A program made the translations under genes and the position numbers. The notes beneath the pieces are model-generated. The model had not been told where the DNA came from. It searched no databases and saw nothing but the letters and a program-made list of their open reading frames with translations. Shown here one piece after another: positions 4,288 through 40,651 of a stretch of DNA of 43,515 nucleotides; within the stretch, counting starts at the first letter, position 1; each line of letters opens with the position of its first letter. The stretch comes from Candidatus Iainarchaeum sp. (GTDB lineage: Archaea > Iainarchaeota > Iainarchaeia > Iainarchaeales > Iainarchaeaceae): the NCBI GenBank assembly GCA_016202305.1, contig JACQPB010000035.1:1-43515 (forward strand). Reading direction: 5' to 3'.

Positions 4288-4530
4288 GTGGGTTGCTTGG
4301 GATTGGACAGGGTTGCACAGCACTTTTTGGTTCCCAAGCACGAAATAGTGCCTGACGAAAGAGCCAAGGAAGTCTTTGCAAAGTTCGGCTCCACAAACGA
4401 CCAGTTCCCACAGATTCTCTCGGACGACCCAGCAATAGTCGAAATAGGGGCCAAGAGGGGCGACCTCATAAAAGTCACGAGAAACAGCCCCACGGCCGGA
4501 AAATCAGTGTTTTACAGGGTGGTCATGTGA
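4288..4530 (+). CDS. rpoH: DNA-directed RNA polymerase subunit H (RPB5 homologue)
   Basis: HFLVPKHEIVPDERAKEVFAKF...ILSDDPAIVEIGAKRGDLIKVTRNSPTAGKSVFYRVV; overlaps rpoB'' by GTGA; first gene of the canonical archaeal rpo operon. Confidence 0.93.
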   Translation: MGCLGLDRVAQHFLVPKHEIVPDERAKEVFAKFGSTNDQFPQILSDDPAIVEIGAKRGDLIKVTRNSPTAGKSVFYRVVM

Positions 4531-7500: not shown

Positions 7501-8999
7501 CGGAAGCAAACACCGCGAGATTCCTGAGGATGGAGCCACAAAAGAAAGTGGTGGAGCTCACCACAAAGGAAACAGGAAGGAAAATAACCGCGACGATTGA
7601 CCACCCGTTCTACTCGGAGCGCTGCGGAAAAACAGAGCTTGCAAACCTCAAGGCGGGGGACAGGGTTGCGGTAATGCCAACTAATCCTATTGAGTTCGAA
7701 AAGCCGGAAGGCACTGAAATACTCTCTGCACAGGACATCGCAACAGCGTGCCCGCCAAAAACCGATGTTAAAATGACAATTGACGCCCTTACGAAAATGG
7801 GATTAGTGCCATTGAAGGACAATGACCAGAGGCTGCTTGCGCTCACAAGGCTGCTTGGGCACGCGTTCGGCGACGGCTCACTCACAATTTCAATGAAAAA
7901 GCACAAATCAGCATGTGCCATAGTGTTCAGCGGCACCGAGCCTGACCTTGAGGAAATACGCAAAGACCTAGCCGCAATAGGTTTTGGCGCGTCAAAGCAG
8001 AGTGTTTACAGGAAAGAGTCGGTGCTCAGCAACGGCAGGAAAATATCCGGTTTCAGCAGGAGAATGGACTGCTATTCGAAGCCCCTCTGGGTGCTTCTGC
8101 ATGCACTGGGCGCCCCCGCAGGGGACAAGGCAGCCAGGGAAACGCATGTGCCGCAGTGGCTGAATAAGCAGAGGAAAATCGTTGTAAAGGAATTCCTCGC
8201 AGCATACTTCGGGAGCGAAATGACAACGCCGAAAGCCGACAAGAGAGATGGAAAGACATTCCTGCAACCGGTATTTTCACTGAACAAGGTTGCGGACCTT
8301 ACAGAGAATGGCATTGCATTTGTGGAGGAAATAAAGGGGTTGCTTTCAAAATTCGGCGTTGAAATGGCAAGCACGAAAATAGTGTATGGCACCACGAGAA
8401 AAAACGGCACCGAAACAAGGAAAATCAAGGCAAAGCTCAAAGGCAACCTTGAGAACCTCCTGAAACTGTATGGAACAATATCCTTCAACTACTGCGCCAA
8501 GAGAAAGAGCCTCGCAAGGATTGCCTATTCTTACCTCCAGCACAGGGAATTCATGATTCGAAACAGGGCAAGGATGATGGAACAGGTCATTTCACTGTAC
8601 AACAGCGGGGCCAGCACGGCCAAGATAGCAGGAAAGTTCGCAGGTGAACTAAGGAATCACGATGTCGCAAACTGGGTGAAGGCGCACAGGAAAGGCATGC
8701 CTGTGAGCGCAAGGGTTTCAGAGAAGGACTTCCCCGAATTCAATGACTGGATAAGAGAACATGCAATCAGCGAGAATGGCATGGTATGGGAAACAATAGG
8801 CAGCACAAATGAAGCAATAGCCACAGAAGTCATGGACATAACTACACTTGAGGGCTACCACAACTTCTTTGCAAACGGATTTCTCACAGGAAATTGCGGC
8901 CTGGTCAAAAATCTCGCGATGCTCGCGCAAGTGACTACAGAGAGCGAGGAAGAGCCGATAGAAAAACTCCTCAGGGACATGGGAGTGAAACTGAAATGA
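4527..8999 (+). CDS. rpoB2: DNA-directed RNA polymerase subunit B'' containing two inteins
   Basis: N-extein 448 aa ([10 protein letters not shown]...HWGRL), middle extein [10 protein letters not shown] (10 aa), C-extein [34 protein letters not shown] (34 aa). Joined: [22 protein letters not shown], the universal RpoB motif. Confidence 0.97.
   Translation: [1490 protein letters not shown]
5871..7349 (+). mobile_element. intein 1 of RpoB'' (493 aa, LAGLIDADG homing endonuclease type)
   Basis: Starts [13 protein letters not shown]; block B [10 protein letters not shown]; DOD motifs [11 protein letters not shown] and [10 protein letters not shown]; ends [14 protein letters not shown] followed by Cys+1. 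Confidence 0.95.
7350..7379 (+). other. 10-codon extein ([10 protein letters not shown]) between the two RpoB'' inteins
   Basis: Bounded by the intein 1 C-terminal Asn (7347-7349) and the intein 2 Cys1 (7380-7382); matches the conserved RpoB C-x-x-E-T-P-(D/E)-G-P motif. Confidence 0.95.
7380..8894 (+). mobile_element. intein 2 of RpoB'' (505 aa, LAGLIDADG homing endonuclease type)
   Basis: Starts [16 protein letters not shown]; block B [10 protein letters not shown]; DOD motifs [11 protein letters not shown] and FLAAYFGSE; ends [14 protein letters not shown] followed by Cys+1. Confidence 0.95.
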
Positions 9000-15828: not shown

Positions 15829-15876
15829 GGCATAATTGTCTGGAAAATGTTTTTGCTTGGTTTTGGCGGAGATTTG

Positions 15877-17832
15877 ATGGCAGGGGAATTCGCGGCAAGG
15901 GCGCTTGAGAAGAAGAGGAAGAAATGGCGCAAGAAGGACAGGCGCTGGCGCAAGAAGATGATGAGCAGGATGCACGACGACGGCGCCGACCTTTTGGAAG
16001 GCTCGCCGCAGGCAAAAGGAATCGTGCTGGAAAAGAGAGGCGTGACCGCAAAGCAACCGCACTCAGGGATCAGAAAATGCGTTGCCCCTGATACAAAAGT
16101 GCAGCTGTTTGACGGGTGCTATGCAACCATTGAAAACCTTGGAAACTCATGGAAAGATTCTGTTGTAAGCACCTACAACACCGAAAGCAACACTGTGGAA
16201 CCTACAAGGCTTGTTGACTGGTTCGGCATGGAAGAGACGCACGGAAAATCCTTTGAAATAATGACAAGGGAAAACGGAAGAAAACTCATTGCATCGGCAG
16301 ACCACCCGATTTATACGCAAAGGGGAAAAATCGATTTTGCGGAACTGAAAGCAGGCGACAAGGTGGCTGTGCTCCCCGGAAATCCGGTAGAATATGAAAA
16401 GTCCAACAAGACGATTTTGACGGAACCGAAACTTGCCAGCAACGCCCCGGAAAAAACCAGAAAAGAAAAAATAGTGGCCTCCTTGATGGAAAAAGGATTA
16501 CTGCCCCTCAGGCTGGACAACCCGAAACTTCCGAAGCTTGCAAGAATTGCTGGGCACATGTTCGGAGATGGATGCCTGAGCTATGGAAAATCCGGGGCTG
16601 GAATGGGCGGCAAGGCAGTGTTCAGCGGAAAACCTGAAGATTTTGGGGAAATGAAAAAGGATTTGCACGACTTGGGATTCAAAACTTCGCCAATCCAAAG
16701 GCAAGTCAGGAAAAGCACAGTAAGAACTTCCTCGGGCGAGAGGGTCATTGAAGGCACGAGCCACATGATGAGCTGCTCGTCGATTTCACTTTATACTCTG
16801 TTAAAGGCGCTTGGAGTGCCTTCCGGCGACAAGGCAAATTCCTCTTACAGCGTGCCTGAATGGATTAAGAAAGGTCCACTATGGGTAAAGGAGGAGTTCC
16901 TTTCAGCGTATTTCGGAAGCGAACTTGAAAGGCCCAGGATTAGCGGCAAAACCTTCCAGCCACCGTGCCTATGCCAAAACAAGACAGAAGAACATGTGAA
17001 GAGCGGAAGAAAGTTTTTGGAGGAAGTAAGTGAAATCCTTAGAGAATTCGGAATAACAACCAGCAGCACCATAAAAAGCAAGTTCTGTTGTTACAGGAAA
17101 GACGGGACAAAAACATACAGGGGGTTGCTCTACATCGACTCCAACCATGAGAATCTTATCAGGCTCTTTGGCAAGATTGGGTACAAGTATTGCAAAGAAA
17201 GGGCTACGCTTGCAAGGCATTGTGTTGCTTATCTCGGGTACAGGAAAAAAATGTTCGAAGATGGGCGGAATGCCTTTGATGAAGCAATGAAACTCAGAAA
17301 GAGCGGGCTTACAATCGCTAAAATAACAAAGGAACTCGGCAGTATGGGATTCGGTACAATCAAAAAAGGAAGGGTGAACTACTGGGTTTCGGCAGGAGTA
17401 AAGGAAAAACAAAAAATAGGCACCACCGCAGCAGTAGAATCTTTCCACGAATGGAGGCAAAAGGCGGCCAAGGATCTTGGGGACGGCCTTGTGTGGGAAA
17501 CAATAAACACTGTAAAGGAAAGCCCAAAAAGGATGCTGATGGATGTCACGACCGCAAGCGAAAACCACAATTTTTTCGCAAACGGGTTCCTGACAGGGAA
17601 CTGCGTACGCGTGCAACTGATCAAGAACGGCAAGCAGCTCACGGCCCTCGCACCAAGGGACGGCGCAATCAAGTACATTGATGAGCATGACGAAGTAACA
17701 GTCGAGGGCATAGGCGGCGCACAGGGCGGACCCAAAGGCGACCTCTGGGGAGTGAAGTTCAGGGTCACGCACGTGAACGGCATTGCGCTGGAAATGCTCA
17801 GGACAGGCAGGAAGGAGAAGGTGAAGAGGTAA
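15877..17832 (+). CDS. rps12: ribosomal protein S12 (uS12) containing an intein
   Basis: [24 protein letters not shown]...KQPHSGIRK | intein | [60 protein letters not shown]. Start placed at ATG 15877. Confidence 0.97.
16078..17601 (+). mobile_element. intein of ribosomal protein S12 (508 aa, LAGLIDADG type)
   Basis: Starts [14 protein letters not shown]; block [14 protein letters not shown] motifs [11 protein letters not shown] and FLSAYFGSE; ends [14 protein letters not shown] followed by Cys+1; splices to RKCVRVQL. Confidence 0.95.
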
Positions 17833-18461: not shown

Positions 18462-18515
18462 AACGGGGCATTGCACGGGCAAAAACCGGGCTCGCTTGTT
18501 TTTAGTGGTGAAAAT

Positions 18516-21500
18516 ATGGCCAAGAAGGAAGACATCGTAAAGCTCGCGGAAAAGCTGATGAACCGGCGCGAAAATATCAGGAACATGGGAATAGTCGCGC
18601 ATATTGACCACGGGAAATGCGTGGCGCCATCAACAAGGCTACAATTGGCAGACGGATCTTTTGTCACCGCGAAAGAACTTTTTGAAAGGGCGTCGCTTAC
18701 CGGGACAAAGGCCAAGGAAAACGAATCTGAAATTGTTTATGCGCTCAGCAGCCCCGTGAATGTTTTTTCAGTTGACCGGGAAACAGGAAGATTAGTTGCA
18801 AAGGAAATTTCACATGCTTGGAAACTTAAAGGCGGGAAAGTCCTCGAAGTGAGGACAAGAAACGGGGCCAAGGTAACTACCACACCAGAGCACAAATACC
18901 TTGTATTTGACGGAAATGAATTTTCGTATACCGAAGCAAAAGACCTCACCATAGGGAAAAGAATAGTTACTGTAAGAAAAGCCGAAACTGTTTCTGACAG
19001 TGATATTGGCTTTGAAGCACTAAAGCTGCTTGCACAAAAAGGGTTTTACGCAAAAGTGAACGAAAGCGCCAGAAAAGCGATATTGGCAAAAACAGGCAAG
19101 AAAGAAATCCCGGAAATTTGCAGAAAAATAAGGACTCCGCTCACGCAACAGTCATTTTACTTTGGAGTTTGCAAGGGAAGGTACCGGCTTGACGACCTCC
19201 TAATGCTCGCAGAAACAGTAGGCTGCCGCAAAGAGGACGTTTTGGAATGGGTAGAAGGGATTGCGGTTAAGGGAAGCTGTTACATCAAATGGAAGCCTAA
19301 GTTCAGTGACATATTCTATGCAGCAGGACTCATGGTTGGAGATGGCTCCGACAACAAGCTTGTTGCCGGAAAAAAACTGCTTGGAGATGAATTCAGGAGA
19401 ATATGCAAGGACCACGGCATCAAAACGTATGACAGGTATTATCCGCAATGGGGGCAGACCAGGGAAATAGGCGCAAGCAAGAGTTTCAAATTGCTTCTGA
19501 ATGCGCTCTTTGATTACCCTATGAAAAATAAGGCACACAATGTAAAGATTTCGGCATTCCTGCAGAAGTCACCCGCAGAGTTGGGAGCACAGTTTTTGAA
19601 GGGATATTTTGACACTGACGGATGCGTGGAAAAAGGAAGAAACGCGATAACAATTACCAGCGTAAGCGACCAGATGATAAGCGAACTTCCGCTTTTCCTG
19701 AGCAGGTTCGGGTGCGTTGCCATAGTGGAGAAGGATAACACTATTTCCATTAGCGGAGAATCGGTAAAAGAGTTCATGGAAAAAATAGGGTTTTTGCTTC
19801 CTGAAAAAATGGAAAAGGCAAGAGAAATGGCAAGGAAAAGCACCGGCAGCACAGTGTGCGACCTTGTCCCGATGTCAGGACTTAAGATTGCAAGAGAACA
19901 ACTCGGAATCTCGAAAAATGAAGTAAGCAAGCATTACTACAAATACGAGAATGAATTTTATGTCCCGACAAAATCAACTTACCAAAATCTTCTGCAAAAG
20001 ATGAGGCAAAAAGGCATTACAAATAAAATTGATGTTTCGCAACTCTGCTTTATGGAAGTGGCCTCAATTAAAGAGGGCTTTGAGGAAACGGTTTATGATT
20101 TCAGCGTTCCCGGAACAAGAAATTTTGTGGCGGAAACAATTGTGGTGCACAACTCAACGCTGGCAGATTCCTTGATTGCCGCCTCCGGCCTCATGAGCGA
20201 GGAGCTCGCGGGGCAGCAGCGCGTAATGGATTACGAGGACCAGGAGCAGGAGCGCGGCATAACCATAAACGCGGCCAACATTTCGCTCCTGCACACTCAG
20301 GGCGGCCAGGAATACCTGATAAACCTGATTGACACGCCGGGCCATGTAGACTTCGGAGGCGAAGTGATAAGGGCAATGCGGGCGGTTGACGGCGTCATAC
20401 TCGTCGTGGACGCAGTGGAGGGCGTGATGCCGCAGACGGAAACAGTGGTTAGGCAGGCATTGCGCGAGTACGTGAGGCCCGTGCTGTTCATCAACAAGGT
20501 AGACAGGCTGATTAACGAGCTGCAGCTGAACGAGCAGCAGATGCAGGAACGCTTCCTGAAAGTGATTTCACAGGTCAACGGGCTCATCAGCAAGAACGTG
20601 CCGAAGGGCTTTGAGGACGAGTGGAGCGTGAAGGTGCAGAACGGCTCGGTGACCTTCGGAAGCGCGTACAACAAGTGGGCCATTTCCGTGCCGAGGATGG
20701 CCACGACAGGCATTTCGTTCAAGCAGGTTTACGAGTGCCTCAAGTCGGACAACCAGAAGGAGCTTGCCAAGATGTCAAAGCTTTCCGAAGCAATACTTGA
20801 GATGGTGGTCACGCACCTGCCCAACCCCCTCAAGGCGCAGAAGTACAGGATGCCAGTAATCTGGAAGGGTGAAGCCGAGTCCGCCATAGGCAAGGCGATG
20901 ACCGCATGCGATGAGAAAGGCCAGTTCGCGATGATGGTCACTGATGTTAGTGTTGACAAGCACTCCGGGGACATAGCAACCGGGAGGGTTTACTCCGGCA
21001 CCATAAGCAAGGGTGTCAAGGTAAACCTGATAGGCAGCCAGAAAGAGGTCATGACGCAGAAAATAGGCCTCTTTATGGGCCCTGATTTCGTGGAGGCCGG
21101 CACGGTCCCTGCCGGAAACATAGTGGCACTGGTGGGACTCAAGGACGTTTATGCAGGAGAGACAATCAGCGACGGCGAGATACCGCCATTCGAGAGCTTC
21201 ATGACGGAAGTGGAACCCGTCATGACGGTTTCCATAGAGGCGAAGAGCACCAAGGACCTGCCAAAGCTCATAGAGGTAATAAGGCAGCTCACGAAGGAAG
21301 ACCCCAATCTGCGCGCCACAATAAACCAGGAAACGGGCGAGCACCTCCTTTCCGGAATGGGGGAACTGCACCTCGAAATAAACCAGTACAGGATTGAAAA
21401 GCACCACAACGTCGCAATAACGGTTTCTACGCCCATTGTTGTTTACCACGAAACCATAAACCGGGAATCCCCGACGCTCGAGTCCAAGAGCCCGAACAAG

Positions 21501-22244
21501 CACAACAAGCTCAAGATGTACGCCGAGCCTATTCCGCACGAAACGCTTGACAAGCTGATAAAGAGCCACTTCGAGGGCAAGGTCAAGCCGAAGGACAAGG
21601 AAAAAATCGCGATGTTCCAGGAGATGGGCTTCGACATTGACACGTCAAAGAAGATATGGGCAGTGCACAACCAATGCGTGCTCGCGGACGGAACCAAGGG
21701 AATAGAGGCCCTGCACGAGATACGTGAACTCGTGATACAAGGATTCAACGACGCCATGGATGCCGGGCCGCTCGCGAAGGAAAAGTGCTTCGGCACCATG
21801 ATTGTGCTCAAGGACGCCACACTGCACGAGGACGCTATACATCGCGGCCCGGCACAGATGCTGCCCACGGTCACGAAAGGCTGCTACGCATGCATGCTCT
21901 CTGCCGACCCAGTGTTCTACGAGCCTAAGCAGACGCTCACGATAACGGTCCCGGAAGCATACCTCGGTGCGGTATCGAAGGAGCTTGGCGCGAGGCGCAC
22001 GCAGATAACCGAGATGAGGCAGGAAGGCGATTCCTCAATCATAATAGGAAAGGCCCCGGTGAAGGAGCTCATAGGGTTCTCGAGCAGCATACGCGGCTCG
22101 ACGCAGGGAAGGGCCCTGTGGACCGCAGAATATGCAGGCTACGAAATGCTCCCGCGAGAGCTCCAGAACCCCACCATAAGGTCAGTGAGAAAGAGGAAGG
22201 GCATGGACGAAGAAGTCAAGCCCGCGAGCCACTTCCTTGAATGA
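18516..22244 (+). CDS. fusA: translation elongation factor 2 (aEF-2) containing an intein
   Basis: NMGIVAHIDHGK | intein | STLADSLIAASGLMSEELAGQQRVMDYEDQEQERGITINAANISL...DTPGHVDFGGEV; LHEDAIHRGPAQ diphthamide loop. Spliced length about 730 aa. Confidence 0.97.
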   Translation: MAKKEDIVKLAEKLMNRRENIRNMGIVAHIDHGKCVAPSTRLQLADGSFVTAKELFERASLTGTKAKENESEIVYALSSPVNVFSVDRETGRLVAKEISHAWKLKGGKVLEVRTRNGAKVTTTPEHKYLVFDGNEFSYTEAKDLTIGKRIVTVRKAETVSDSDIGFEALKLLAQKGFYAKVNESARKAILAKTGKKEIPEICRKIRTPLTQQSFYFGVCKGRYRLDDLLMLAETVGCRKEDVLEWVEGIAVKGSCYIKWKPKFSDIFYAAGLMVGDGSDNKLVAGKKLLGDEFRRICKDHGIKTYDRYYPQWGQTREIGASKSFKLLLNALFDYPMKNKAHNVKISAFLQKSPAELGAQFLKGYFDTDGCVEKGRNAITITSVSDQMISELPLFLSRFGCVAIVEKDNTISISGESVKEFMEKIGFLLPEKMEKAREMARKSTGSTVCDLVPMSGLKIAREQLGISKNEVSKHYYKYENEFYVPTKSTYQNLLQKMRQKGITNKIDVSQLCFMEVASIKEGFEETVYDFSVPGTRNFVAETIVVHNSTLADSLIAASGLMSEELAGQQRVMDYEDQEQERGITINAANISLLHTQGGQEYLINLIDTPGHVDFGGEVIRAMRAVDGVILVVDAVEGVMPQTETVVRQALREYVRPVLFINKVDRLINELQLNEQQMQERFLKVISQVNGLISKNVPKGFEDEWSVKVQNGSVTFGSAYNKWAISVPRMATTGISFKQVYECLKSDNQKELAKMSKLSEAILEMVVTHLPNPLKAQKYRMPVIWKGEAESAIGKAMTACDEKGQFAMMVTDVSVDKHSGDIATGRVYSGTISKGVKVNLIGSQKEVMTQKIGLFMGPDFVEAGTVPAGNIVALVGLKDVYAGETISDGEIPPFESFMTEVEPVMTVSIEAKSTKDLPKLIEVIRQLTKEDPNLRATINQETGEHLLSGMGELHLEINQYRIEKHHNVAITVSTPIVVYHETINRESPTLESKSPNKHNKLKMYAEPIPHETLDKLIKSHFEGKVKPKDKEKIAMFQEMGFDIDTSKKIWAVHNQCVLADGTKGIEALHEIRELVIQGFNDAMDAGPLAKEKCFGTMIVLKDATLHEDAIHRGPAQMLPTVTKGCYACMLSADPVFYEPKQTLTITVPEAYLGAVSKELGARRTQITEMRQEGDSSIIIGKAPVKELIGFSSSIRGSTQGRALWTAEYAGYEMLPRELQNPTIRSVRKRKGMDEEVKPASHFLE
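18618..20153 (+). mobile_element. intein of EF-2 in the P-loop (512 aa, LAGLIDADG type)
   Basis: Starts CVAPSTRLQLADGS; block B VTTTPEHKYL; DOD motifs AAGLMVGDGSD and LKGYFDTDGCV; ends YDFSVPGTRNFVAETIVVHN followed by Ser+1. Confidence 0.95.
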
Positions 22245-25874: not shown

Positions 25875-27893
25875 TCATGCAGGCATCCCGAAGAATGGCC
25901 GCTTTCGATTCAACAGTATGAATGCCACAACGGCAATGCCAACTGCCGAGAGCGCATAGCCTGCCGTGTCAGCCAAGGCGTTCACATAGCGCAGCTCGAA
26001 TTCCCCCTTGGCGTACACGAGCATGAAGTAAGGGGAGGCGCGGTAGATGCGCAGTTCCGTGCCGTCGCTGTACGCGCGCCAGTTGGGGAAATGGGAAATT
26101 TTTATTAGCACCGGCACAGGATTTGCAGAATTCACCCTGAACTTCATTCGCTCCATTGTAGAACTCTGCTCAATGACATCAACGGTTTCGCCGCCAGCCC
26201 CGGCGAAGCCCGGCACAGGCTCGCTGACCAGTATTGTGTCCTTCACGGCATTGGACATGAACCAGCCCTTCACCGCATCATCCCAGTTTCCCTCCGCAAC
26301 TTCCGGCCTCGCCTTAAGCACCTCGGCAATGGGGCTGCCGCCGACTTTATAGAGTTTGTAGTTGTGCAGGCTGGTTTCCCCGGTGTTTTCATCCCTCAGG
26401 TAAATGGCGAACAGATCCTGCACCTCTTCCCATTCCTCGAACCTTTTTTCCGCGGAAACAACATGAGTGATGCCAAAGAGCCTCATCTGGAAAGGCACGA
26501 GAGCCCTCGCGTCTTCCCCCATGGACGACACAAGGTTCAAGTCGAGTGGAACTCCCCATTGGGAATGGTTGCCGTCGAGAGCCTGCTCCATGTAAAATAT
26601 ATACCTGGAGTTCCTGGAAGAATGGACCTGCTGCCCCTTCACCGAGTTCGCAGAGTACTGCATCGGAATCAGGTGCTGGAGCTCCTCGAACTGGGACTCG
26701 GCATTGAGCGGAGCGTCAATGTAAAGCCGCCCATGGATTTTTTCATCTGTGCCCTGAACACTTTTTAGTATAGATACCCCGCCGGGGTTGATTCCGGGGG
26801 AAAAAACCGCCACAAGAAGGCACGCCGCTATGAAAGGCACCCACAGGGCCTTCTGCCTGCCCAAAGCACGCAAAACGAAAAAAATTATCACAGGGGCCAT
26901 GAGGACGAGGAACATGAAAAGGCGCTGGAAGTGGAAAGGCACATTCGCGATTTTGCCTAGAAAAGAGAATCCTGATAGAAGGGCCACGAATGCGAGCGGC
27001 TCGGCGGCGCCGCTTTCCTTCCTCGAGCCGAGGTAAAATGCCAGGACCACGGCAATTGTCAGCACCAGGAAGTCGAAAGGCACCGTGCCGGAAGTGCTCA
27101 CATCACTGTAGCCGATTTTCGCAATGGCCGGAACAAGCCAGAATGCCGAGAGGAGGAAGGCGAGTGAAAAATGCCTTGCAATGAAAACAAGCCTCTGTCT
27201 TTGCCAGCCAGAAATTGCGAAAGCCACCCCCGCAATGAATGCCGCGACGCCGGAGAATGTGTGTGCAAGCAATGTGAGAGAAAGGAGCACAGCCGGAAGC
27301 ACGAACAGGCCGTTTGCCGCGCCGCGCTTCAGGGAGCCGAAGTAAAAGAAGAAAACCGGCAGCGCCACGGAATTTGCCACAAAACCCGACTCGAAGAGCG
27401 AGCTTAGGTTCCCGCCAACCAATTCATCCGGGCGGACAAACAGGAGCGAGAACATTGCAAGCATCGCGAGCGCCGAATCTTTTCCGGAAAGGCCGAAGGA
27501 GCGCGCAAAGTAATAGAAGGAAAGCGGCGTGAGCAATAGCGCCGCTGCTACCAGAAGCTTGAAAGCCGATTCAAGCGGCATAAACAGCGACAGCAATGAA
27601 GAGGCGTAAGGAACAAGGGGGCCATAAAAATGGTTTTCGGGATACCCGAAGAAAAAGAAAGGGTCCCAGCCGGTTATGCGCGGAAAAAGGTATTCCTTCG
27701 TGTACCACGAGGAAAAATAAATCCCAGGTGTATCGCCATTGAGGAGGTTATTCTGCAGAAAGAAGGGCTGCACAAGGAAAACAGCGATGTAAGCAAGTAC
27801 CAAAAGCATGGCCAACAAAGGAAAGGCCTTGGCACTTGCGAGTGGCACACCCATCATTTTTTCCGCGAGGCCGTGCAACTTTCCGGTGTCCAA
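25875..27893 (-). CDS. large polytopic membrane protein, possibly GT-C/oligosaccharyl-related
   Basis: Many hydrophobic helices; NGDTPGIYFSSWYTKEYLFPRITGWDPFFFFGYPENHFYGPLVPYASSLLS luminal-loop pattern; C-terminal soluble domain followed by a terminal TM helix. Confidence 0.75.
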   Translation of the reverse strand: MDTGKLHGLAEKMMGVPLASAKAFPLLAMLLVLAYIAVFLVQPFFLQNNLLNGDTPGIYFSSWYTKEYLFPRITGWDPFFFFGYPENHFYGPLVPYASSLLSLFMPLESAFKLLVAAALLLTPLSFYYFARSFGLSGKDSALAMLAMFSLLFVRPDELVGGNLSSLFESGFVANSVALPVFFFYFGSLKRGAANGLFVLPAVLLSLTLLAHTFSGVAAFIAGVAFAISGWQRQRLVFIARHFSLAFLLSAFWLVPAIAKIGYSDVSTSGTVPFDFLVLTIAVVLAFYLGSRKESGAAEPLAFVALLSGFSFLGKIANVPFHFQRLFMFLVLMAPVIIFFVLRALGRQKALWVPFIAACLLVAVFSPGINPGGVSILKSVQGTDEKIHGRLYIDAPLNAESQFEELQHLIPMQYSANSVKGQQVHSSRNSRYIFYMEQALDGNHSQWGVPLDLNLVSSMGEDARALVPFQMRLFGITHVVSAEKRFEEWEEVQDLFAIYLRDENTGETSLHNYKLYKVGGSPIAEVLKARPEVAEGNWDDAVKGWFMSNAVKDTILVSEPVPGFAGAGGETVDVIEQSSTMERMKFRVNSANPVPVLIKISHFPNWRAYSDGTELRIYRASPYFMLVYAKGEFELRYVNALADTAGYALSAVGIAVVAFILLNRKRPFFGMPA

Positions 27894-27984
27894 AGATTAT
27901 TCCCCCAAAAGCACAGTCCGCACTAATATGCGGTTAATATGCATTAACAGCTTTTTTATTAAAAAGAATGCCCTTTTTCCTTTC

Positions 27985-30900
27985 ATGCAAATAAACCCAG
28001 TAAAGGCCACGTTGCCCATTATTGCACTTATTGCACTTGTCATGATTGCAGGGCCTGCCTATTCTAATGGTTCCGGCTCTGGAGGAGGAGGAGGAACACC
28101 GGCACCGGTATGCGGAAACGGACTTTGGGAAACCGGGGAGCAATGCGACTTTTCTGCCAGCCCTACTGGCTGTGCTGCAGACCTCACGTGCCGCAACCTC
28201 ACGTTCAATGACCCATGCACATGCTACAACAGGTTGCCGTCCAGCAGCGTGAGCACCCCCCAGACAAATTATGGCTTGTCGGCGAGCGTCTCAGTGACAG
28301 GCACCGGCACCGACCCGGAAGGATATGTAAAAAGAGTTGAATTATACTGGAGAAAAGGTGCAGGCAGCTGGACCAATTTTGAAACTTGCACTCCGTCCCC
28401 CGCCACAAGCCCTGTCACCTGCACGGATTCATTCAGCACGGATTCGTCCGGAGGCACTTATACTGTTGCGGCAAATGTTTATGACACCCCAGGAGCTGGC
28501 GCGCAGGACACCAAGACCATATATAGTTATAGCTGCTACAACGTAACCGGCCAGACATGCAACACGGCCAGCAGCTGTGCGGCTGCGGGGAAGCTTTCAG
28601 GCTCCGGCTCATGCGGCACTGGAGAACTCTGCTGCGCCCCCGCACCCCCAATCAGCGTCGACGCGGGAGGCCCTTATTCCGGCACGACAGGCTCTGGCAT
28701 AGGGCTCAATGGCACGGTGAGCGGCGGAGTGGGAGGATACAGTTACTCGTGGAGCGGGCCGGGAGTTTGCTCGTTCAGCGGCAGCAGCAGTACTATTGAA
28801 GACCCGACAATTACATGCAGCAGCACTGTTTCCTCTGGCAGCGTGAGCATAACTGGCACGGACAGCTACGGGAACAATGCCTCGGACAGCGCGACGCTGG
28901 ATGTCAGCCCCCCGTCAAATGCGTCACCGAGCGTCAGCATCACAGGGCCCGTGACAGGAGGAAATACATTCACGACAACAGCACCAGCAAACATTACCCT
29001 AAGCGCAAACGCCAGCGACAGCGACGGCAGCATAACCCAAGTAGAATTCTTCCGCAACGGCACATCCATCACGGAAGACACAACAAGCCCATACTCCATA
29101 CCGTGGAACAACGTCGGCGCAGGAACATACACCATAACCGCAGTAGCCACCGATGACGATGGAGCAACAACCACAAGCTCGTCAATAACAGTAGTGGTGA
29201 ACCACCCGCCAATAAGCGCCACCATATCACAGCCGACAGCCGGCACTTATAATGTGGGGGCCGGAACCATAAACCTGAGCGGAAGCGCAAGCGGCGGCAC
29301 GGGAACAGGATACACATACCTCTGGACCGCCACAGGATGCACCATTGCCTCCGCAACCAGTGCCAGCACCACCATGAGTTCCTGCTCCACCGGGAACAAG
29401 ACCGTATCCCTAAGAGTGAGGGACAGCAGATGCACCGCAGCGCAGACAACATGCGCATCAGAAGCAACCACAAGCGTCACAATAACAATCAACTACCCCC
29501 CGACAGCAAGCCTTACATCCCCCACACCAGGCACGACAACGAACCTGCACATGCCAAGCGGCCTCACGCTGCAGGCAACCGCGAGCGACTCGGACGGCGA
29601 CGTCACAAAAGTGGAATTCTATGGCGGCACCACAAAACTCGGAGAAGACACCACAAGCCCATACAGCTTCACATGGACACCCGACACAGCAGGCACCTAT
29701 ACAGTTACTGCAAAAGCAACAGACAACCAAGGCGCCACAGGAACATCCACAGGAGCAACCGTAGAGGTGTACACGGCAGTGGCCGCAAATGCCGGACCTG
29801 ACATCACCATCAACCCCGGAACCGCGACGAATGTCACGGGAAGCGCATCCGGCGGAAGCGGAGGCTGGTCATACTCGTGGACACTCCCCAACCCAAACAA
29901 GGCGGACTGCACAATCAACAGCGGGGCAAACTCGCAGACAGTGAACATCACATGCACCTCGCAAGGAGACCACTCCACGCTCAGGCTCAGGGCAACGGAC
30001 AGCACGAGCGGCACGGACACCGATGACGCCACAATAAACGTCAACATCGCGCCAGCTTCTAGCATCACCAGCCCAGCGGCCAATTCAAACTTCATGCCGG
30101 GAAGCAACATCACGATACAGGCCAACGCCACGGATGGCGATGGCACAGTGTCGAAAGTTGAGTTCTACAACGGCGCCACATTGCTCGGAGAAGACACCAC
30201 AAGCCCATACACATACACATGGAGCAGCGTGGCCGCAGGAACATACACGCTCACGGCAAAAGCAACAGACAACCTCGGCGCTACAACAACTTCCGCAGGA
30301 GTCAGCATAACAGTGAGCAACTCGGCCCCAGTAGTTGATGCACCGGCAGTGACAAGCAACAACTCATTCACCGCCCCGACAACGCTCACGATGAGCACGA
30401 CGGCAACCGACAGCGATGGAAGCGTTGCAAGCGTGCAGTTCCTCAAGGACGGGACAGTGATAACCGGCACCGTGACAAAGAGCGGAAACACATACACGCA
30501 GACATTGGCAGGAGTGGCCACTGGCACTTACTCAATCACGGCAAGGGCAACGGACAACGCAGGGACAGTGACAGGCTCCGCAGCCACAAGCGTGACTGTT
30601 TATGCGCCACTCACCGTTTCCATAAAATATGGCGGAAGCGCAATCACGAGCAGGACAGTGAACAAAGGAGTGGCCAACACATTCACGGCGGAAGCAGCTG
30701 GCGGAAACGGCACTTACTCCGGCTGGGCGTGGGCAATAAAGCCCGGAACCACGAACAGCGCAAGCTGCAGCTTCGCAACCCCAAATGCGCAATCAACGGA
30801 AATAACCTGCACTTCCGAAGGCCAGACATCAACCATAAGGGCAAGCGTGCAGGACGGGAGAGGCATCACGGCAACGGCTGACGCGGCCATAACCGTCAAC

Positions 30901-33900
30901 AACAGCCCATACGCAAACATAACCGCGCCAGTGTCCCCGAACAACGTGTTCACGACACAAGGCACAACAAGCATACCTATAACCGCGAGCGCGGGAGATG
31001 CCGATGACGACCTGAGCTCCGTGACATTCTACCACGACGAGATAATAGCGGCGAATATCATAGGCACGGACAGCACTAGCCCGTACAATGCCACATGGAG
31101 CGGCGTCGGGATAGGAACATACACAATAATCGCAAGGGCGGCAGACAGCCTCGGTGCAGTAGGGGATTCTGCGCCACAGCAAGTGATAGTGCGGTACCCG
31201 GCACTCACAGCCTCGGCAAACGGCCCTTACAGCGGCACCAAGGGAACGCAGACAGAGCTCACGAGCGGCGCGGGAGGGGGAACAGGAACAGCGTACAAGT
31301 ACAGATGGGTATCGAGCGACGCAAGCTGCGACTTCGCGAACGGCGAAGCGTTTTCCGCGCTTGCCGATGACTATGTCGAGTGCACCACGAAAGGCACAAA
31401 GGACCTCACGCTGACCGTGAGGGACAGCAGGTGCACAGCGACACAGGCGGCATGCGATTATGAAGAGTCCGCGAGCACGACAATAGCAGTCAATGACACG
31501 CCGACCCTCAGCATCACGAGCCCTGCCACGAACTCGGTGTTTACCACAGGCTCGACGATAACCATAGAGGCGACGGCATCAGACTCGGATGGCACAATAC
31601 AGAAAGTGGAGTTCATATACGCTGGTACAGCGTTCAGCACTGACACAAGCGCGCCCTACAGCGCAACATGGACAGTGCCTTCGAGCACCGGCAGCTATGT
31701 GATAGCGGCACGGGCCACGGATGACAAGGGAGCGTTTGCCACCAAAAACATCACGATAATCGCCAACGCCCCGCCGAGCATTTCCATCACGAATCCCGCG
31801 GCAGGGGCCAGCTATAACACTCCTGCAAGCACCCTGCTTTCCGCGAACGCCTCCGATGGCGACGACGGTCTCTCGAAAGTCGAGTTCCTCGAAGGGGCAA
31901 CGAGCATAGGGAAAAGCTGTGACACGGCTGCAGGAAGCGACTGCAGCGGAAGCCCCTACACATTCCAATGGAGCAACATCTCGCCAGGAAATCACACAAT
32001 AAAGGCCGTGGCCACGGACAGCAGGGGCGCTAGCACGAACTCGGCAGAAGTGAGCTTCACCGTGACCAACGCCGCACCCACCGTTTCTGTCACCATTCCG
32101 GCGAACAACAGCATTTTCGACACGCCCGCAAGCATAACATTGACGGCCAGCGCATCTGACACGGACGGCATAGGCAAGGCGGAGTTCTACGATGGCGCCG
32201 CAAAGCTCGGCGACGGAACCCTGAAGTCTGGCACCACGGACATCTACGAGTACGCATGGGCACCGGGAGCAGGAGCATATGCAATAACGGCAAAAGCTTA
32301 TGATAGCTGGGATTTGGCTGCGCAGTCATCCCCCGCAATCAACGTGACAATAAACCAGCCGCCAATCCCAACCCTTGCCGCAAGCGGCGCGCCGTTCGTG
32401 GCGCCAGCAGACATCACACTGACGGCAAATGCGAGCGACCCTGACACGGCAGGCAAAATAACGAAAATAGAGTTCTGGAACTACACCAACCCAAACAGCC
32501 CGCTGCTGCTCAGCACTTCAAACATTGACCCGCCAGCGCAGGCCGCGACCGCCATATATACGTGGCCAGGGCTTGCGGCAGGCACGTACACGACGAAGGC
32601 AAAGGCATATGACGACAAGGGCTCCTCGGCCATCTCATCCGAAGTGACTATGACAGTGGCGCCGACGCCTACATGCGCCATTTCCCCGGCAAACCCCACA
32701 ATCACGCAAGGAGAAAACGCAACAGAAACCGTGACAACACAACACTTCAAAAACCCGCTCAGCCTCACTAACACAGACATAGCATGCAACGGAGCCGCAC
32801 AAAAAAGCGTCACATGCAGCAGCGGAACATGCACAATAACATGCACAAACTATACCACAAGCGGAACAATAACCGCAACAACAACAGATAGTGGAAAAAC
32901 AGTAACATGCACAGCAACAGCAACAGTAGTCGCGCAAAACCTCTGCACGAACAGCGGAACATGCACGCTGGCATCACAAGGATGCGCAGCAGGAACATTC
33001 AACAACACAGCAGACACATGCAACATCAGCGGCGGAACAATATGCTGCACACCAAACCTAACAGCAAACGCGGGAGCGGACAAAAGCACGGACAAGGACG
33101 TTTTCAAGACATTGACAGGCTCATACGGCGGCGGAATCACCCCGCATACAGTGCAATGGTCGGCGCCGGCAGTGGCCAACTGCGTATTCTTCTTCGGCAA
33201 CACGCTCAATCCATGGGTGTCATGCAGCACCAACGGGAACAAGACAATAACCCTCACAGTAACAGACGACCGCGGAGTGAGCGCATCTGACGACATGGTG
33301 CTGAGCGTCAACGAGCCGCCGACAGCGAGCATAACCAGCCCCGCGGACGGCGCCAATCCCCAATTGCCCACCACGGTCACGATAACCGTGAGCGCCGGCG
33401 ACGCCGACGGAACGGTGCAGGAAGTAAAAATATTCGACGGCGCCACGGAACTCCGGAGGCTCACCGCAGCACCATACACCTACTCGTGGGTCAATCCCAC
33501 TACCGGAGCGCATTCCCTGACAGCCAAGGCCACTGATGACAAAGGAGCAACCACGACATCAGCGGCAATTAACATCACAATAAGGGCCGCCAACGTGGCG
33601 CCCTCGGCAAGTATAACCAGCCCGCAGGGCGGCGACTCATTCGCCACGCTCACGGCAACGACCCTTACCGCGAACGCCTCTGACAGCGACGGAACCGTCA
33701 GCAGCGTAAAGTTCTACGTGGGAGGCACAACGCTAATCGGCGAAGACACTTCAAGCCCGTATGATACCACATGGACGACGCCCACGACGCCCGGCACTTA
33801 CAGCCTCACAGCAGTAGCGACAGACAACCAAGGGGCTACAACGACATCGGCCACAGTCAACATCAGCGTCACTAACAGGAGCCCGGAAGCGAGCATTACC

Positions 33901-36405
33901 TCGCCTGCAACCGGCACTATATATAACCCGCCAGTGAACATAACCCTCAATGCAACCGCAAGCGACCTTGACGGCACAGTGTCAAAAGTGGAATTCTACA
34001 ATGGCGACACAAAACTCGGAGAAGACACCACAAGCCCATACGCATACACGTGGAACAGCGTGGCCGCAGGAACATACACGCTCACGGCAAAAGCCACTGA
34101 CAACCTCGGCGCGCAAACGGTTTCCACGGCCATAAGCGTGACTGTGAACCAGCCACCGGCAATCAGCATCACCAGCCCGGCAGACGGCGACACAGCAGTG
34201 GCCCCTGCAGACATAGGAATTTCAGCCGACGCAAGCGACACTGACGGCACCATAAGCAGCATAGACTTCTACAACTACACGGCCCTCATCGGGAGCGCGA
34301 GCATACCGGCAAACCACAGCAGCGTCACAGGCACATTCACATGGAGCAGCATAGCTCCCGGCACTTACTCCCTTACAGCAGTGGCGAAGGACAACCACGA
34401 CGCGCAAACGACTTCCGCCGCGGCAACCATAACAGTGACGCCGACGCCTACATGCGCCATTTCCCCGGCAAACCCCACAATCACAGAAGGAGAAAACGGA
34501 ATCGAAACCGTGACAACACAACACTTTGCAAACCCGCTCAACCTCACAAACGCGGACATAGCATGCAACGGAGCAGCACAAAAAAGCGTCACATGCAGCA
34601 GCGGAACATGCACAATAACATGCACAAACTACACCACAAGCGGAACAATAACAGCAACAACAACAGATAGTGGAAAAACAGTCACATGCAAGGCAACGGC
34701 AACAGTGGTATCACAAGACCTGTGCGGAAACAGCGGAACATGCACACCAGCATCACAAGGATGCGCAACAGGAACATTCAACAACACAGCAGACACATGC
34801 AACATCGCCGGCGGAACAATATGCTGCACGCCAAACCTCGCAGCAAACGCGGGAGCGGACAAAAGCACGGACACCGACACGCTCGTGCAACTTACTGGCA
34901 CGCACAGCGGCGGCATTTCACCCTACACGGTTGAATGGTCAGCGCCGACACCGGCGAACTGCATATTCACAGCGCCGAACTCCACCACCACAATGATAGC
35001 ATGCAGCACCAACGGGGACAAAACAATAACCTTCACGGCGACAGACGACCGCGGAATAAGCGCACCTGATGACATGGTGCTTTCAGTGAACTCGCCGCCC
35101 GTGATAAGCATAACCGGCCCGGCAAGCGGGACATCAGTTCAGTCACCCGCGCCCATAACCATAACCGTTTCCGCCACTGACAATGACGGCTCCATCGCAA
35201 AGGTGGAGATACTCGACGGCGCATCCGTCATTGCAACCCTGACAGCAACGCCATTCACATACACATGGACCGATGCGTCTGTAGGCCAGCACTCGCTCTC
35301 GGCGCGCGCGACAGACAACAGCGGCGCCGCCACGACCTCCGCGCCAGTGGAAGTGACAGTCACGCCGCCCAATGTACCGCCGAGCATAACACTGGCTTTG
35401 CCAGCGAATGGCAGCAGCTTCAAGGCCGGAAGCAATGTGACGATTGCCGCTTCCGCTTCAGACAGCGACGGAAGCGTCGCAAACGTGCAGTTCTTCGACG
35501 GCGCAACAGCCATAGGCACGGACGACTCTGCGCCATACTCCGTCACATGGATTGCCTCCGGACTCGGCCAGCACAGCATTACCGCCATGGCAACGGACAA
35601 CCAGGGCGCGAGCACGACAACGGCGCCTGTCTCGATAACTGTCACGCCGGCAAACAGGCTCCCTAATGTTTCCCTCACGCAACCACCTGACGGCGCAGTT
35701 TACCCCTCGGCGCCGGCCAGCTTCACGGCCACGGCAGAGGCAAGCGACCCAGACGGCACCATTGCGAAAGTGGAATTCTTCCTCAACGGCACGCTCGTGC
35801 CGGGAACGGTCACGCAAAGCGGCAGCGCTTACAGCATTGAGGTCAGCAGCCTCACGCAAGGGGCATACGCGCTCGTGGCAAAGGCCACGGACGACGACGG
35901 CGCCGCAGGCAGCTCGAGCCCAGTGAGCATCTACGTGAACGTGCCGCCCACATCCGCAAAGAATAACATCGTGAGCGCGAAGATTTCGGCGGACAAGGAT
36001 GAGTACACCATAGACCCCGCTGACCCGGCCAAGGCAATAACCCTCACAATCACGGCCACATGGCTCAAGGGCACGCCGCCAGCAGGAATAGCTTTCTCGG
36101 TGACGCAGACAAAGGACGGCCTCGAAACCACGGGCGTGCCAAGCGGAGGAAGCATAACCCTCACAGGCGCTCCGGCATCAGGCTCGGCACAAGCAACCGT
36201 GCAACTCGCCGACCTCGAGCCCGGCGCGTACACGTTCACAGCAATCATAGATGGCCAGCCCGGAGAAACAGACCTCGCGGACAACAGCGACAACGTAACC
36301 GTCACCGTCAACGGCGAGAGGAAAGCGGCAGTGCCGGAACTGCCAGAAATACTTGCCTTCCTCGCGGCCCTGGCAGTGATGGGCATACTGATGAGGGCAA
36401 AGTGA
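27985..36405 (+). CDS. giant (about 2,800 aa) surface protein: DUF4215-like Cys-rich N-terminus, PKD-like and about 16 bacterial Ig-like (Big_7-type) repeats, CARDB-like domain, C-terminal TM anchor
   Basis: Signal peptide MQINPVKATLPIIALIALVMIAGPAYS; CGNGLWETGEQCD; repeated SITSPA...ASDSDGTVSKVEFYNG...GEDTTSPYTYTW...AGTYTLTAKATDNLGATTTSA; C-terminus VPELPEILAFLAALAVMGILMRAK. The upstream ORF start at 27808 is less likely. Confidence 0.9.
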   Translation: MQINPVKATLPIIALIALVMIAGPAYSNGSGSGGGGGTPAPVCGNGLWETGEQCDFSASPTGCAADLTCRNLTFNDPCTCYNRLPSSSVSTPQTNYGLSASVSVTGTGTDPEGYVKRVELYWRKGAGSWTNFETCTPSPATSPVTCTDSFSTDSSGGTYTVAANVYDTPGAGAQDTKTIYSYSCYNVTGQTCNTASSCAAAGKLSGSGSCGTGELCCAPAPPISVDAGGPYSGTTGSGIGLNGTVSGGVGGYSYSWSGPGVCSFSGSSSTIEDPTITCSSTVSSGSVSITGTDSYGNNASDSATLDVSPPSNASPSVSITGPVTGGNTFTTTAPANITLSANASDSDGSITQVEFFRNGTSITEDTTSPYSIPWNNVGAGTYTITAVATDDDGATTTSSSITVVVNHPPISATISQPTAGTYNVGAGTINLSGSASGGTGTGYTYLWTATGCTIASATSASTTMSSCSTGNKTVSLRVRDSRCTAAQTTCASEATTSVTITINYPPTASLTSPTPGTTTNLHMPSGLTLQATASDSDGDVTKVEFYGGTTKLGEDTTSPYSFTWTPDTAGTYTVTAKATDNQGATGTSTGATVEVYTAVAANAGPDITINPGTATNVTGSASGGSGGWSYSWTLPNPNKADCTINSGANSQTVNITCTSQGDHSTLRLRATDSTSGTDTDDATINVNIAPASSITSPAANSNFMPGSNITIQANATDGDGTVSKVEFYNGATLLGEDTTSPYTYTWSSVAAGTYTLTAKATDNLGATTTSAGVSITVSNSAPVVDAPAVTSNNSFTAPTTLTMSTTATDSDGSVASVQFLKDGTVITGTVTKSGNTYTQTLAGVATGTYSITARATDNAGTVTGSAATSVTVYAPLTVSIKYGGSAITSRTVNKGVANTFTAEAAGGNGTYSGWAWAIKPGTTNSASCSFATPNAQSTEITCTSEGQTSTIRASVQDGRGITATADAAITVNNSPYANITAPVSPNNVFTTQGTTSIPITASAGDADDDLSSVTFYHDEIIAANIIGTDSTSPYNATWSGVGIGTYTIIARAADSLGAVGDSAPQQVIVRYPALTASANGPYSGTKGTQTELTSGAGGGTGTAYKYRWVSSDASCDFANGEAFSALADDYVECTTKGTKDLTLTVRDSRCTATQAACDYEESASTTIAVNDTPTLSITSPATNSVFTTGSTITIEATASDSDGTIQKVEFIYAGTAFSTDTSAPYSATWTVPSSTGSYVIAARATDDKGAFATKNITIIANAPPSISITNPAAGASYNTPASTLLSANASDGDDGLSKVEFLEGATSIGKSCDTAAGSDCSGSPYTFQWSNISPGNHTIKAVATDSRGASTNSAEVSFTVTNAAPTVSVTIPANNSIFDTPASITLTASASDTDGIGKAEFYDGAAKLGDGTLKSGTTDIYEYAWAPGAGAYAITAKAYDSWDLAAQSSPAINVTINQPPIPTLAASGAPFVAPADITLTANASDPDTAGKITKIEFWNYTNPNSPLLLSTSNIDPPAQAATAIYTWPGLAAGTYTTKAKAYDDKGSSAISSEVTMTVAPTPTCAISPANPTITQGENATETVTTQHFKNPLSLTNTDIACNGAAQKSVTCSSGTCTITCTNYTTSGTITATTTDSGKTVTCTATATVVAQNLCTNSGTCTLASQGCAAGTFNNTADTCNISGGTICCTPNLTANAGADKSTDKDVFKTLTGSYGGGITPHTVQWSAPAVANCVFFFGNTLNPWVSCSTNGNKTITLTVTDDRGVSASDDMVLSVNEPPTASITSPADGANPQLPTTVTITVSAGDADGTVQEVKIFDGATELRRLTAAPYTYSWVNPTTGAHSLTAKATDDKGATTTSAAINITIRAANVAPSASITSPQGGDSFATLTATTLTANASDSDGTVSSVKFYVGGTTLIGEDTSSPYDTTWTTPTTPGTYSLTAVATDNQGATTTSATVNISVTNRSPEASITSPATGTIYNPPVNITLNATASDLDGTVSKVEFYNGDTKLGEDTTSPYAYTWNSVAAGTYTLTAKATDNLGAQTVSTAISVTVNQPPAISITSPADGDTAVAPADIGISADASDTDGTISSIDFYNYTALIGSASIPANHSSVTGTFTWSSIAPGTYSLTAVAKDNHDAQTTSAAATITVTPTPTCAISPANPTITEGENGIETVTTQHFANPLNLTNADIACNGAAQKSVTCSSGTCTITCTNYTTSGTITATTTDSGKTVTCKATATVVSQDLCGNSGTCTPASQGCATGTFNNTADTCNIAGGTICCTPNLAANAGADKSTDTDTLVQLTGTHSGGISPYTVEWSAPTPANCIFTAPNSTTTMIACSTNGDKTITFTATDDRGISAPDDMVLSVNSPPVISITGPASGTSVQSPAPITITVSATDNDGSIAKVEILDGASVIATLTATPFTYTWTDASVGQHSLSARATDNSGAATTSAPVEVTVTPPNVPPSITLALPANGSSFKAGSNVTIAASASDSDGSVANVQFFDGATAIGTDDSAPYSVTWIASGLGQHSITAMATDNQGASTTTAPVSITVTPANRLPNVSLTQPPDGAVYPSAPASFTATAEASDPDGTIAKVEFFLNGTLVPGTVTQSGSAYSIEVSSLTQGAYALVAKATDDDGAAGSSSPVSIYVNVPPTSAKNNIVSAKISADKDEYTIDPADPAKAITLTITATWLKGTPPAGIAFSVTQTKDGLETTGVPSGGSITLTGAPASGSAQATVQLADLEPGAYTFTAIIDGQPGETDLADNSDNVTVTVNGERKAAVPELPEILAFLAALAVMGILMRAK
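32662..33096 (+). repeat. Cys-rich internal duplication, copy 1
   Basis: PTPTCAISPANPTIT...CNGAAQKSVTCSSGTCTITCTNYTTSGTITATTTDSGKTVTC...GGTICCTPNL; collinear with copy 2 at a constant offset of 1779 nt. Confidence 0.9.
34441..34875 (+). repeat. Cys-rich internal duplication, copy 2
   Basis: Near-identical at DNA level to 32662-33096. Confidence 0.9.
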
Positions 36406-40090: not shown

Positions 40091-40106
40091 GCCGGGATTG
40101 CCCGGC
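40091..40106 (+). terminator. hairpin after EF-1A
   Basis: GCCGGG-attg-CCCGGC followed by cacatttt. Confidence 0.45.
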
Positions 40107-40157
40107 CACATTTTACCATTATATAGCAAAGAACAAAGACAAGTCATTTGCTACCTT

Positions 40158-40244
40158 GTCCACTTCGTGGACGAGGCCTCGCCCCAAAAGGGGCAAGGTC
40201 TATCAGACGACCGTAAAATGTTCAAAAAATAATGTCGTCTGATA
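40158..40244. other. cluster of three consecutive hairpins (possible structured RNA or small mobile remnant)
   Basis: GTCCAC-ttc-GTGGAC (40158-40172); GGCCTcGCCCC-aaaa-GGGGCaAGGTC (40175-40200); TATCAGACGAC-22 nt-GTCGTCTGATA (40201-40244). Confidence 0.5.
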
Positions 40245-40336
40245 TAGCAAGCAATACAACAGTAAGCTTGGTTTGAAGCACTGCCTTTCCGCGAATGCGG
40301 AACAGGACAACTCTCCAAACCGCGAGCGTGATTGGC

Positions 40337-40651
40337 ATGCAGAAGGCAAGGATAAAGCTCACATCCCCGGATTACGCCAGGCTTACGGACATCTGCGCGA
40401 AAATACAGGACGTGGCCGTCCGCACGGGCGCAAAGCACTCCGGCACAATACCGCTCCCCACAAGGAAGCTCGTGGTGCCCACGAGGAAAAGCCCCGCAGG
40501 CGGAGGCACTGAAAGCTACGAGCACTGGCAGATGCGCGTCCACAAACGCATAATAGACATACAGGCGGACGAAACCACGCTGCGAAGGATAATGCGCGTC
40601 GAAATACCGGAAAACGTGCACGTGGAAATAGAGCTAAAGGACGCGAAGTGA
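40337..40651 (+). CDS. rps10: ribosomal protein S10 (uS10)
   Basis: MQKARIKLTSPDYARLTDICAKIQDVAVRTGAKHSGTIPLPTRKLVVPTRKSPAGGGTESYEHWQMRVHKRIIDI. Confidence 0.95.
   Translation: MQKARIKLTSPDYARLTDICAKIQDVAVRTGAKHSGTIPLPTRKLVVPTRKSPAGGGTESYEHWQMRVHKRIIDIQADETTLRRIMRVEIPENVHVEIELKDAK

Follow-up and report, generated by a model that had tools for sequence, protein, structure and literature searches.

The cluster of hairpins between the EF-1A and S10 genes of this Candidatus Iainarchaeum contig is best explained, at a probability that we put near 0.88, by two non-autonomous palindromic mobile elements, one nested in the other, that inserted there in this lineage. The window (the whole stretch of DNA that was analysed) is the entire 43,515-bp contig C18 of the MAG G000, which amounts to 1.04 Mb and is incomplete (79.7%). 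The outer element, A, and the inner element, B, have no sequence in common but follow a common plan, in which two adjacent hairpins, the second approximately the inverted complement of the first, combine fixed short framework motifs with variable self-complementary stems. Comparison of their copies suggests that A and B are themselves mobile.

The EF-1A/S10 spacer and its hairpins

The spacer extends from the EF-1A stop codon at 40077 to the S10 start at 40337, and both genes are read in the same direction. A preliminary description of the window had placed four hairpins here, an 11-bp inverted repeat among them, and all four are present where it put them. The cluster is far beyond chance, with a folding energy of -52.8 kcal/mol for 40115-40255 against -25.0 +/- 3.2 kcal/mol for shuffled sequences (z -8.7, 0/200). 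The first hairpin, GCCGGG-attg-CCCGGC (40091-40106, forward strand), directly follows the EF-1A stop codon and lies outside both elements. Most related genomes carry a short hairpin of unrelated sequence at this position, such as GCAGCCC-GGGCTGC in the genus-mate (G001), GGCCC-GGGCC in G006 and CCGGCC-GGCCGG in G022, and the hairpin in the window probably serves as a 3'-end or terminator-type structure of EF-1A. The second, reported earlier as GTCCAC-ttc-GTGGAC, has a longer stem, CCTTGTCCAC-TTC-GTGGACGAGG (40154-40176), with one T.G pair, and is followed by CCTCGCCCC-AAAA-GGGGCAAGG (40177-40198), which contains one C.A mismatch. The arms of the 11-bp perfect inverted repeat, TATCAGACGAC and GTCGTCTGATA, occupy 40201-40211 and 40234-40244 around a 22-nt loop. 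An additional hairpin, TAGCAAA/TTTGCTA (40124-40130 and 40147-40153), had been overlooked.

The 11-bp inverted repeat is not decisive by itself, since it is the sole perfect arm of at least 10 bp with a loop of 3-30 nt in the window, whereas dinucleotide shuffles of the window contain between 0 and 5 such arms (mean 1.4). The 9-mer ATATAGCAA does occur on both sides of the block, at 40121-40129 and 40242-40250, as had been pointed out, but a target duplication can be rejected: the copy on the left coincides with the left terminus of A, and the one on the right begins within the TATA at the right terminus of A. A tRNA scan of the window found no tRNA. The earlier suggestion of a dedicated structured ncRNA gained nothing from an Rfam scan of the window and the spacer, in which no family exceeded its threshold (best E = 0.024, 19.3 of 44 bits). 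Immediately 5' of S10, at 40270-40321, GGTTTG...CAAACC forms an imperfect hairpin that encloses a CCGC/GCGG stem, and for this hairpin the search of the own genome and relatives returned no strong repeat copies. Elsewhere in the window, inteins are found in RNA polymerase Rpb2, ribosomal protein S12 and EF-2 (4527-8996, 15847-17829 and 18510-22241). Rpb2 has two, seen as two splicing-domain stretches; the intein of EF-2 includes a LAGLIDADG domain, and that of S12, an intein location that looks unusual, has a splicing domain slightly below the Pfam cut-off. The gene at 27808-36402 encodes a 2865-aa protein, probably located at the cell surface, in which at least 15 Ig-like domains (PF17957) were recognised.

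A highly stable fold between two translation genes of the same direction could be taken for a cis-regulatory leader or attenuator RNA of an EF-1A/S10 transcript, and autoregulation of this kind had been proposed for the spacer. The distant genome G070 likewise has a hairpin-rich EF-1A/S10 spacer (252 nt; L264). However, in each of the seven other family members the spacer measures 39-110 nt and contains neither A nor B, and the same elements recur at many unrelated loci. In the genus-mate, the spacer is 64 nt long and devoid of both, which refutes a conserved S10 leader, while an A-B-A composite lies on the opposite side of S10. The B-type mosaic in the spacer of G070 is a different one, which fits a separate invasion of that spacer, and nothing in Rfam matched above threshold. 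We therefore regard a leader RNA as extremely improbable. If the region is transcribed, the block would add about five hairpins to the EF-1A/S10 readthrough RNA, and this would be a side effect of its presence rather than its purpose. In the G070 spacer, a third type of hairpin pair, CGTTG...TGACACGTCG...CAACG, interrupts a B stem.

Elements A and B and their nesting

When the spacer was used as a query against the own genome and relatives, two distinct sets of matches were obtained. The first covers 40200-40247, recurs in G000, AR10 (archaeon GW2011_AR10, a complete genome of the same order) and G039, and represents half of element A; the second covers 40153-40198, recurs in G000, G003, G006 and others, and represents element B. 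The further copies that a genome-wide search was expected to reveal, if the block were an insertion, are thus present both in the own genome and in relatives.

The window copy of A consists of 40122-40153 plus 40199-40246 (about 80 bp), a hairpin pair bounded by TATAGC...GCTATA. Its left half (40122..40153, forward strand) forms the hairpin TATAGCAAA...TTTGCTA and lacks 14 nt found in other copies, for which reason the window copy is probably dead. Its right half (40199..40246, forward strand) forms the hairpin TCTATCAGACGAC...(TGTTCAAA)...GTCGTCTGATATA, is 88% identical to a sequence in contig C22 of the same genome, and resembles in architecture sequences in AR10, G039 and G003. The loop motif TGTTCAAA (40219..40226, forward strand) is the complement of TTTGAACA, a motif that other A copies carry in their left hairpin; in the window the left motif is shortened to GAACA, and TTGAAC/GTTCAA is almost invariant among the 25 copies of alignment A2. 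An intact A, of which the same genome has a copy at C22:55341-55435, reads TATAGCAAATGAC-(TTTGAACA)-GTCATTTGCTAT C TATCAGGCGAC-(TGTTCAAA)-GTCGCCTGCTATA and is about 92 bp long. A pattern search recovered 37 full copies, mostly of 91-99 bp (one of 86 bp), with the ends TATAGC/GCTATA, ends which make a TA target duplication indistinguishable from the terminal bases.

The model of A matches 21 of 93 related genomes, in 15 genera, and none of the 18 among them that lie outside the order (Diapherotrites type); the A pattern had no match in viral contigs. Element A occupies about 9 loci in G000. The complete genome AR10 has about 41 copies, 35 of them intergenic (less than 10% overlap with predicted ORFs), a state reached by 8% of random 93-bp segments. 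In the two-hairpin fold of A, 90.8% of positions are paired, with a covariation of 0.380 against 0.147 after shuffling (0/500). A single long hairpin was rejected as the conserved fold of A, since its covariation was only 0.120 against 0.101 (pair counts). Several further repeats accompany A in AR10. Three A copies, at 613, 784 and 898 kb, share an insert of about 160 bp (TGTCAAGAACCACC...) in the second loop that is itself another palindromic repeat, and several A-like families form mosaics, both in tandem and nested, at 97740-98070, 861250-861650, 1176500-1176900 and 1195960-1196300 (CP010424.1), where another, 45-bp hairpin type with the loops GGTAA/TTACC is inserted in A-like loops.

Element B (40154..40198, no strand assigned) is a GC-rich hairpin pair of 45 bp at the centre of A. 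Its plan is CCTTG-stem-CGAGG|CCTCG-stem-CAAGG, and copies of 43-57 bp end in CCTTG/CAAGG. The exact framework was found in 13 of 93 relatives and its reversed-pattern control in none, in a search that fixes the framework by construction and hence does not gauge its invariance. A covariance model extended these results to 29 of 193 genomes in 19 genera, all within the order among the matches listed, gave about 15 loci in AR10, and recovered framework variants there and elsewhere. The stems are far more variable: the 64 hairpins of 32 B copies comprise 54 distinct sequences, and almost every inner stem is fully complementary (for example TGAAGC/GCTTCA, CAAACC/GGTTTG, TCCAC/GTGGA and CAGAGC/GCTCTG). 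In 17 hairpins of equal length, 100% of positions were paired and 31 double changes were counted, against 9.8 +/- 3.3 after shuffling (0/500). In the framework as searched, the fourth pair of the stem base is T.G, which reads as C.A on the opposite strand. The framework also gave 10 matches in viral contigs, all of them chance-like, with stems that were mostly unpaired, which indicates that the pairing of B stems is no artefact of the pattern. B appears to spread through the order while its stems change in sequence and keep their pairing. The covariation that had been looked for in homologous spacers is strong, although it resides among dispersed copies of mobile hairpins and not in orthologous spacers.

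The locations of B are as varied as its stems. Besides A, it lies within quite different palindromes (CTTTTCTT...AAGAAAAG), and four of 34 full-length copies fall in tRNA introns of 173-240 nt predicted by ARAGORN, one of which has Rfam support: Ser GCT (L104:1284-1594), an uncertain Phe AAA (L107:1553-1822), Ser GGA (L239:337-651) and Arg TCT (L311:1426-1675). Half-B hairpins occur in three further intron-bearing tRNA predictions (L016, L112 and L188). One more B copy (L316:1501-1554; G074:C10:20391-20444) was found within the gene for an archaeal RNase P RNA (1422-1742, Rfam RF00373), which lies downstream of the 23S rRNA.

In the window, B is located between the two hairpins of A, and comparison with empty forms shows the insertion to be clean. 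Within the own genome, a variant of A provides the empty site CTATCTATCA^AACCGC at C7:30607 (L301; uninterrupted CTGCTATCTATCAAACCGCTGG), and the filled form, CTATCTATCA[B]AACCGC, is present on contigs C44 and C53; the only difference between the filled sites and the empty one is B itself, with 0 bp duplicated. The window B splits GTCATTTGCTA^TCTATCAG (GCTA^TCTATCAG), which is uninterrupted in AR10, and here too there is no duplication, the empty form being that of another genome. As B sits at different positions in the A linker in the window and in C44/C53, separate insertion events are indicated. A-B-A composites exist at five places in all (the window, C44, C53, G001:C102 and G003:C42), and the same composite at unrelated loci in C44 and C53 suggests that a composite may itself have moved. 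These composites could be read as a single unit of which B is the native core instead of a later insertion. Such a reading is very unlikely, given that most A copies lack B, that B is also found away from A, in predicted tRNA introns, in an RNase P RNA gene and in palindromes of other kinds, and that its placement within A varies and an empty site exists; nevertheless, some composites may still move together. The small MITE-like insertion envisaged in the preliminary description was accordingly right in kind, except that there are two insertions, one nested in the other, and that the hairpin at 40091-40106 belongs to neither.

Possible routes of spread

In the order of events that we favour, A would have arrived in the EF-1A/S10 spacer first, and B would then have inserted between the hairpins of A with no base duplicated or deleted. 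Folded as single-stranded DNA, framework and hairpin would serve as the recognition signal for an enzyme presumably supplied in trans; recognition of folded DNA is suggested by covariation around a fixed framework, the palindromic layout and the duplication-free joins. The stems could drift by changes on one arm that are compensated on, or copied to, the other arm, with pairing kept. We tentatively consider such trans-mobilised single-stranded DNA hairpins the likeliest route.

Among the genomes examined (most of those compared being incomplete MAGs), neither A nor B could be linked to a transposase or a recombinase. Comparison of AR10 with itself by BLAST revealed no multi-copy IS and no parent autonomous transposon for either element, and the ORFs between neighbouring A hairpins of AR10 were host-gene-like, with no parent transposon. 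A long AR10 repeat of about 97% identity, near 213.6 and 1035.7 kb, was considered as an IS and set aside, as it encodes a TPEQRSE-repeat protein that is not transposase-like; this duplicated gene (213555-214292 and 1035633-1036616, about 97% identical) differs between its copies in the number of TPEQRSE repeats.

A more specific version of the trans route is that A and B are REPIN-type elements moved by a RAYT-like Y1 (HUH) transposase acting on single-stranded DNA hairpins. The inverted hairpin pair, the extragenic bias of A, the compensatory changes and the insertion of B without target duplication all fit this idea, REPINs have the same layout and compensatory changes (PMC3116915), and Y1_Tnp proteins are present in several relatives. 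Yet PF01797 (Y1_Tnp) had no match in G000, in the complete AR10 despite its abundance of A and B loci, or in the B-rich G065 and G070, and the Y1 genes examined in relatives were not flanked by B-type motifs or hairpins, so that no link between Y1_Tnp and the elements emerged. Inspection of the flanks of 32 B copies also disclosed no constant tetranucleotide tag of the GTAG/CGTC type, and a RAYT-like enzyme seems somewhat unlikely. The main alternative to the single-stranded DNA route would be spread at the RNA level, by ligation and reverse transcription of hairpin RNA, a route that has been suggested for the GC clusters of mitochondria. It would account for the presence of B in certain predicted tRNA introns and, once, in an RNase P RNA gene, and it would suit duplication-free joins beside hairpins. 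On the other hand, 30 of the 34 full-length B copies are outside any predicted tRNA, and the framework of B is palindromic and therefore favours neither strand as RNA, which makes this route quite improbable. Finally, B could be a class of mobile DNA of its own, with a fixed short stem base (CCTTG/CGAGG|CCTCG/CAAGG) and stems rewritten as matched pairs in almost every copy, inserting without target duplication, with a preference for tRNA introns, genes of structured RNAs and palindromes other than itself, by means of an enzyme not yet known. We think this unlikely.

Implications and comparison with known systems

DPANN archaea have small genomes, and a search of the literature found no paper on mobile repeats of this short kind in Diapherotrites/Iainarchaeota. 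Being abundant, with covarying stems, clean insertion and nesting, A and B make it possible to test hairpin-recognised mobility. In this group, the two elements may also account for hypervariable spacers, long tRNA introns and the RNase P RNA gene that contains a B. For annotation, fold stability and covariation do not by themselves justify calling such a hairpin cluster a riboregulator.

Rickettsia palindromic elements resemble A and B in being palindromic and dispersed in many places, but they belong to another domain of life and consist of a single long palindrome instead of a hairpin pair. Closer in host are the archaeal MITEs of Sulfolobus, Halobacterium and Haloquadratum (review PMC10969869), and both A and B are, like these, short, non-coding, dispersed and bounded by terminal inverted repeats, with mobilisation presumed to occur in trans. 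As a rule, the copies of a MITE are nearly identical and come with a target duplication and a parent transposon, whereas B has hypervariable stems, 0 bp of duplication between filled and empty sites and no parent that we could find in the complete AR10; A, with its possible TA target, is nearer to an ordinary MITE than B is.

The REPINs or REP doublets (BIMEs) mobilised by RAYTs, for example in Pseudomonas fluorescens, are built of inverted hairpin units with compensatory changes on both sides of each hairpin (PMC3116915). They are also dispersed, extragenic and non-autonomous. A and B likewise pair two conserved hairpin units in inverted orientation, and an intergenic bias is seen for A (35 of 41 copies in AR10). 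The differences are that in REPINs the REP is conserved and the spacer varies, while in B the stem interior varies and the stem base alone is fixed; that REPINs have a RAYT, which the complete AR10 does not; that REPINs carry a GTAG/CGTC-type tag, none of which was seen at the flanks of B; and that B, in an archaeal host, nests inside other palindromes. A further parallel is provided by the double-hairpin elements, GC clusters and repetitive hairpin-forming elements of the mitochondria of Allomyces, yeast and sponges, whose enzyme is likewise not known (PMC2800124, PMC4478555). These are small units of one or two hairpins, optional between relatives, that merge and nest and sometimes reside in structured RNA genes. 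Although they inhabit organelle genomes and are likened to A and B by layout, not by sequence, A and B share with the double-hairpin elements two stem-loops per unit, optional presence and nesting, a likeness that supports a similar way of working rather than common descent.
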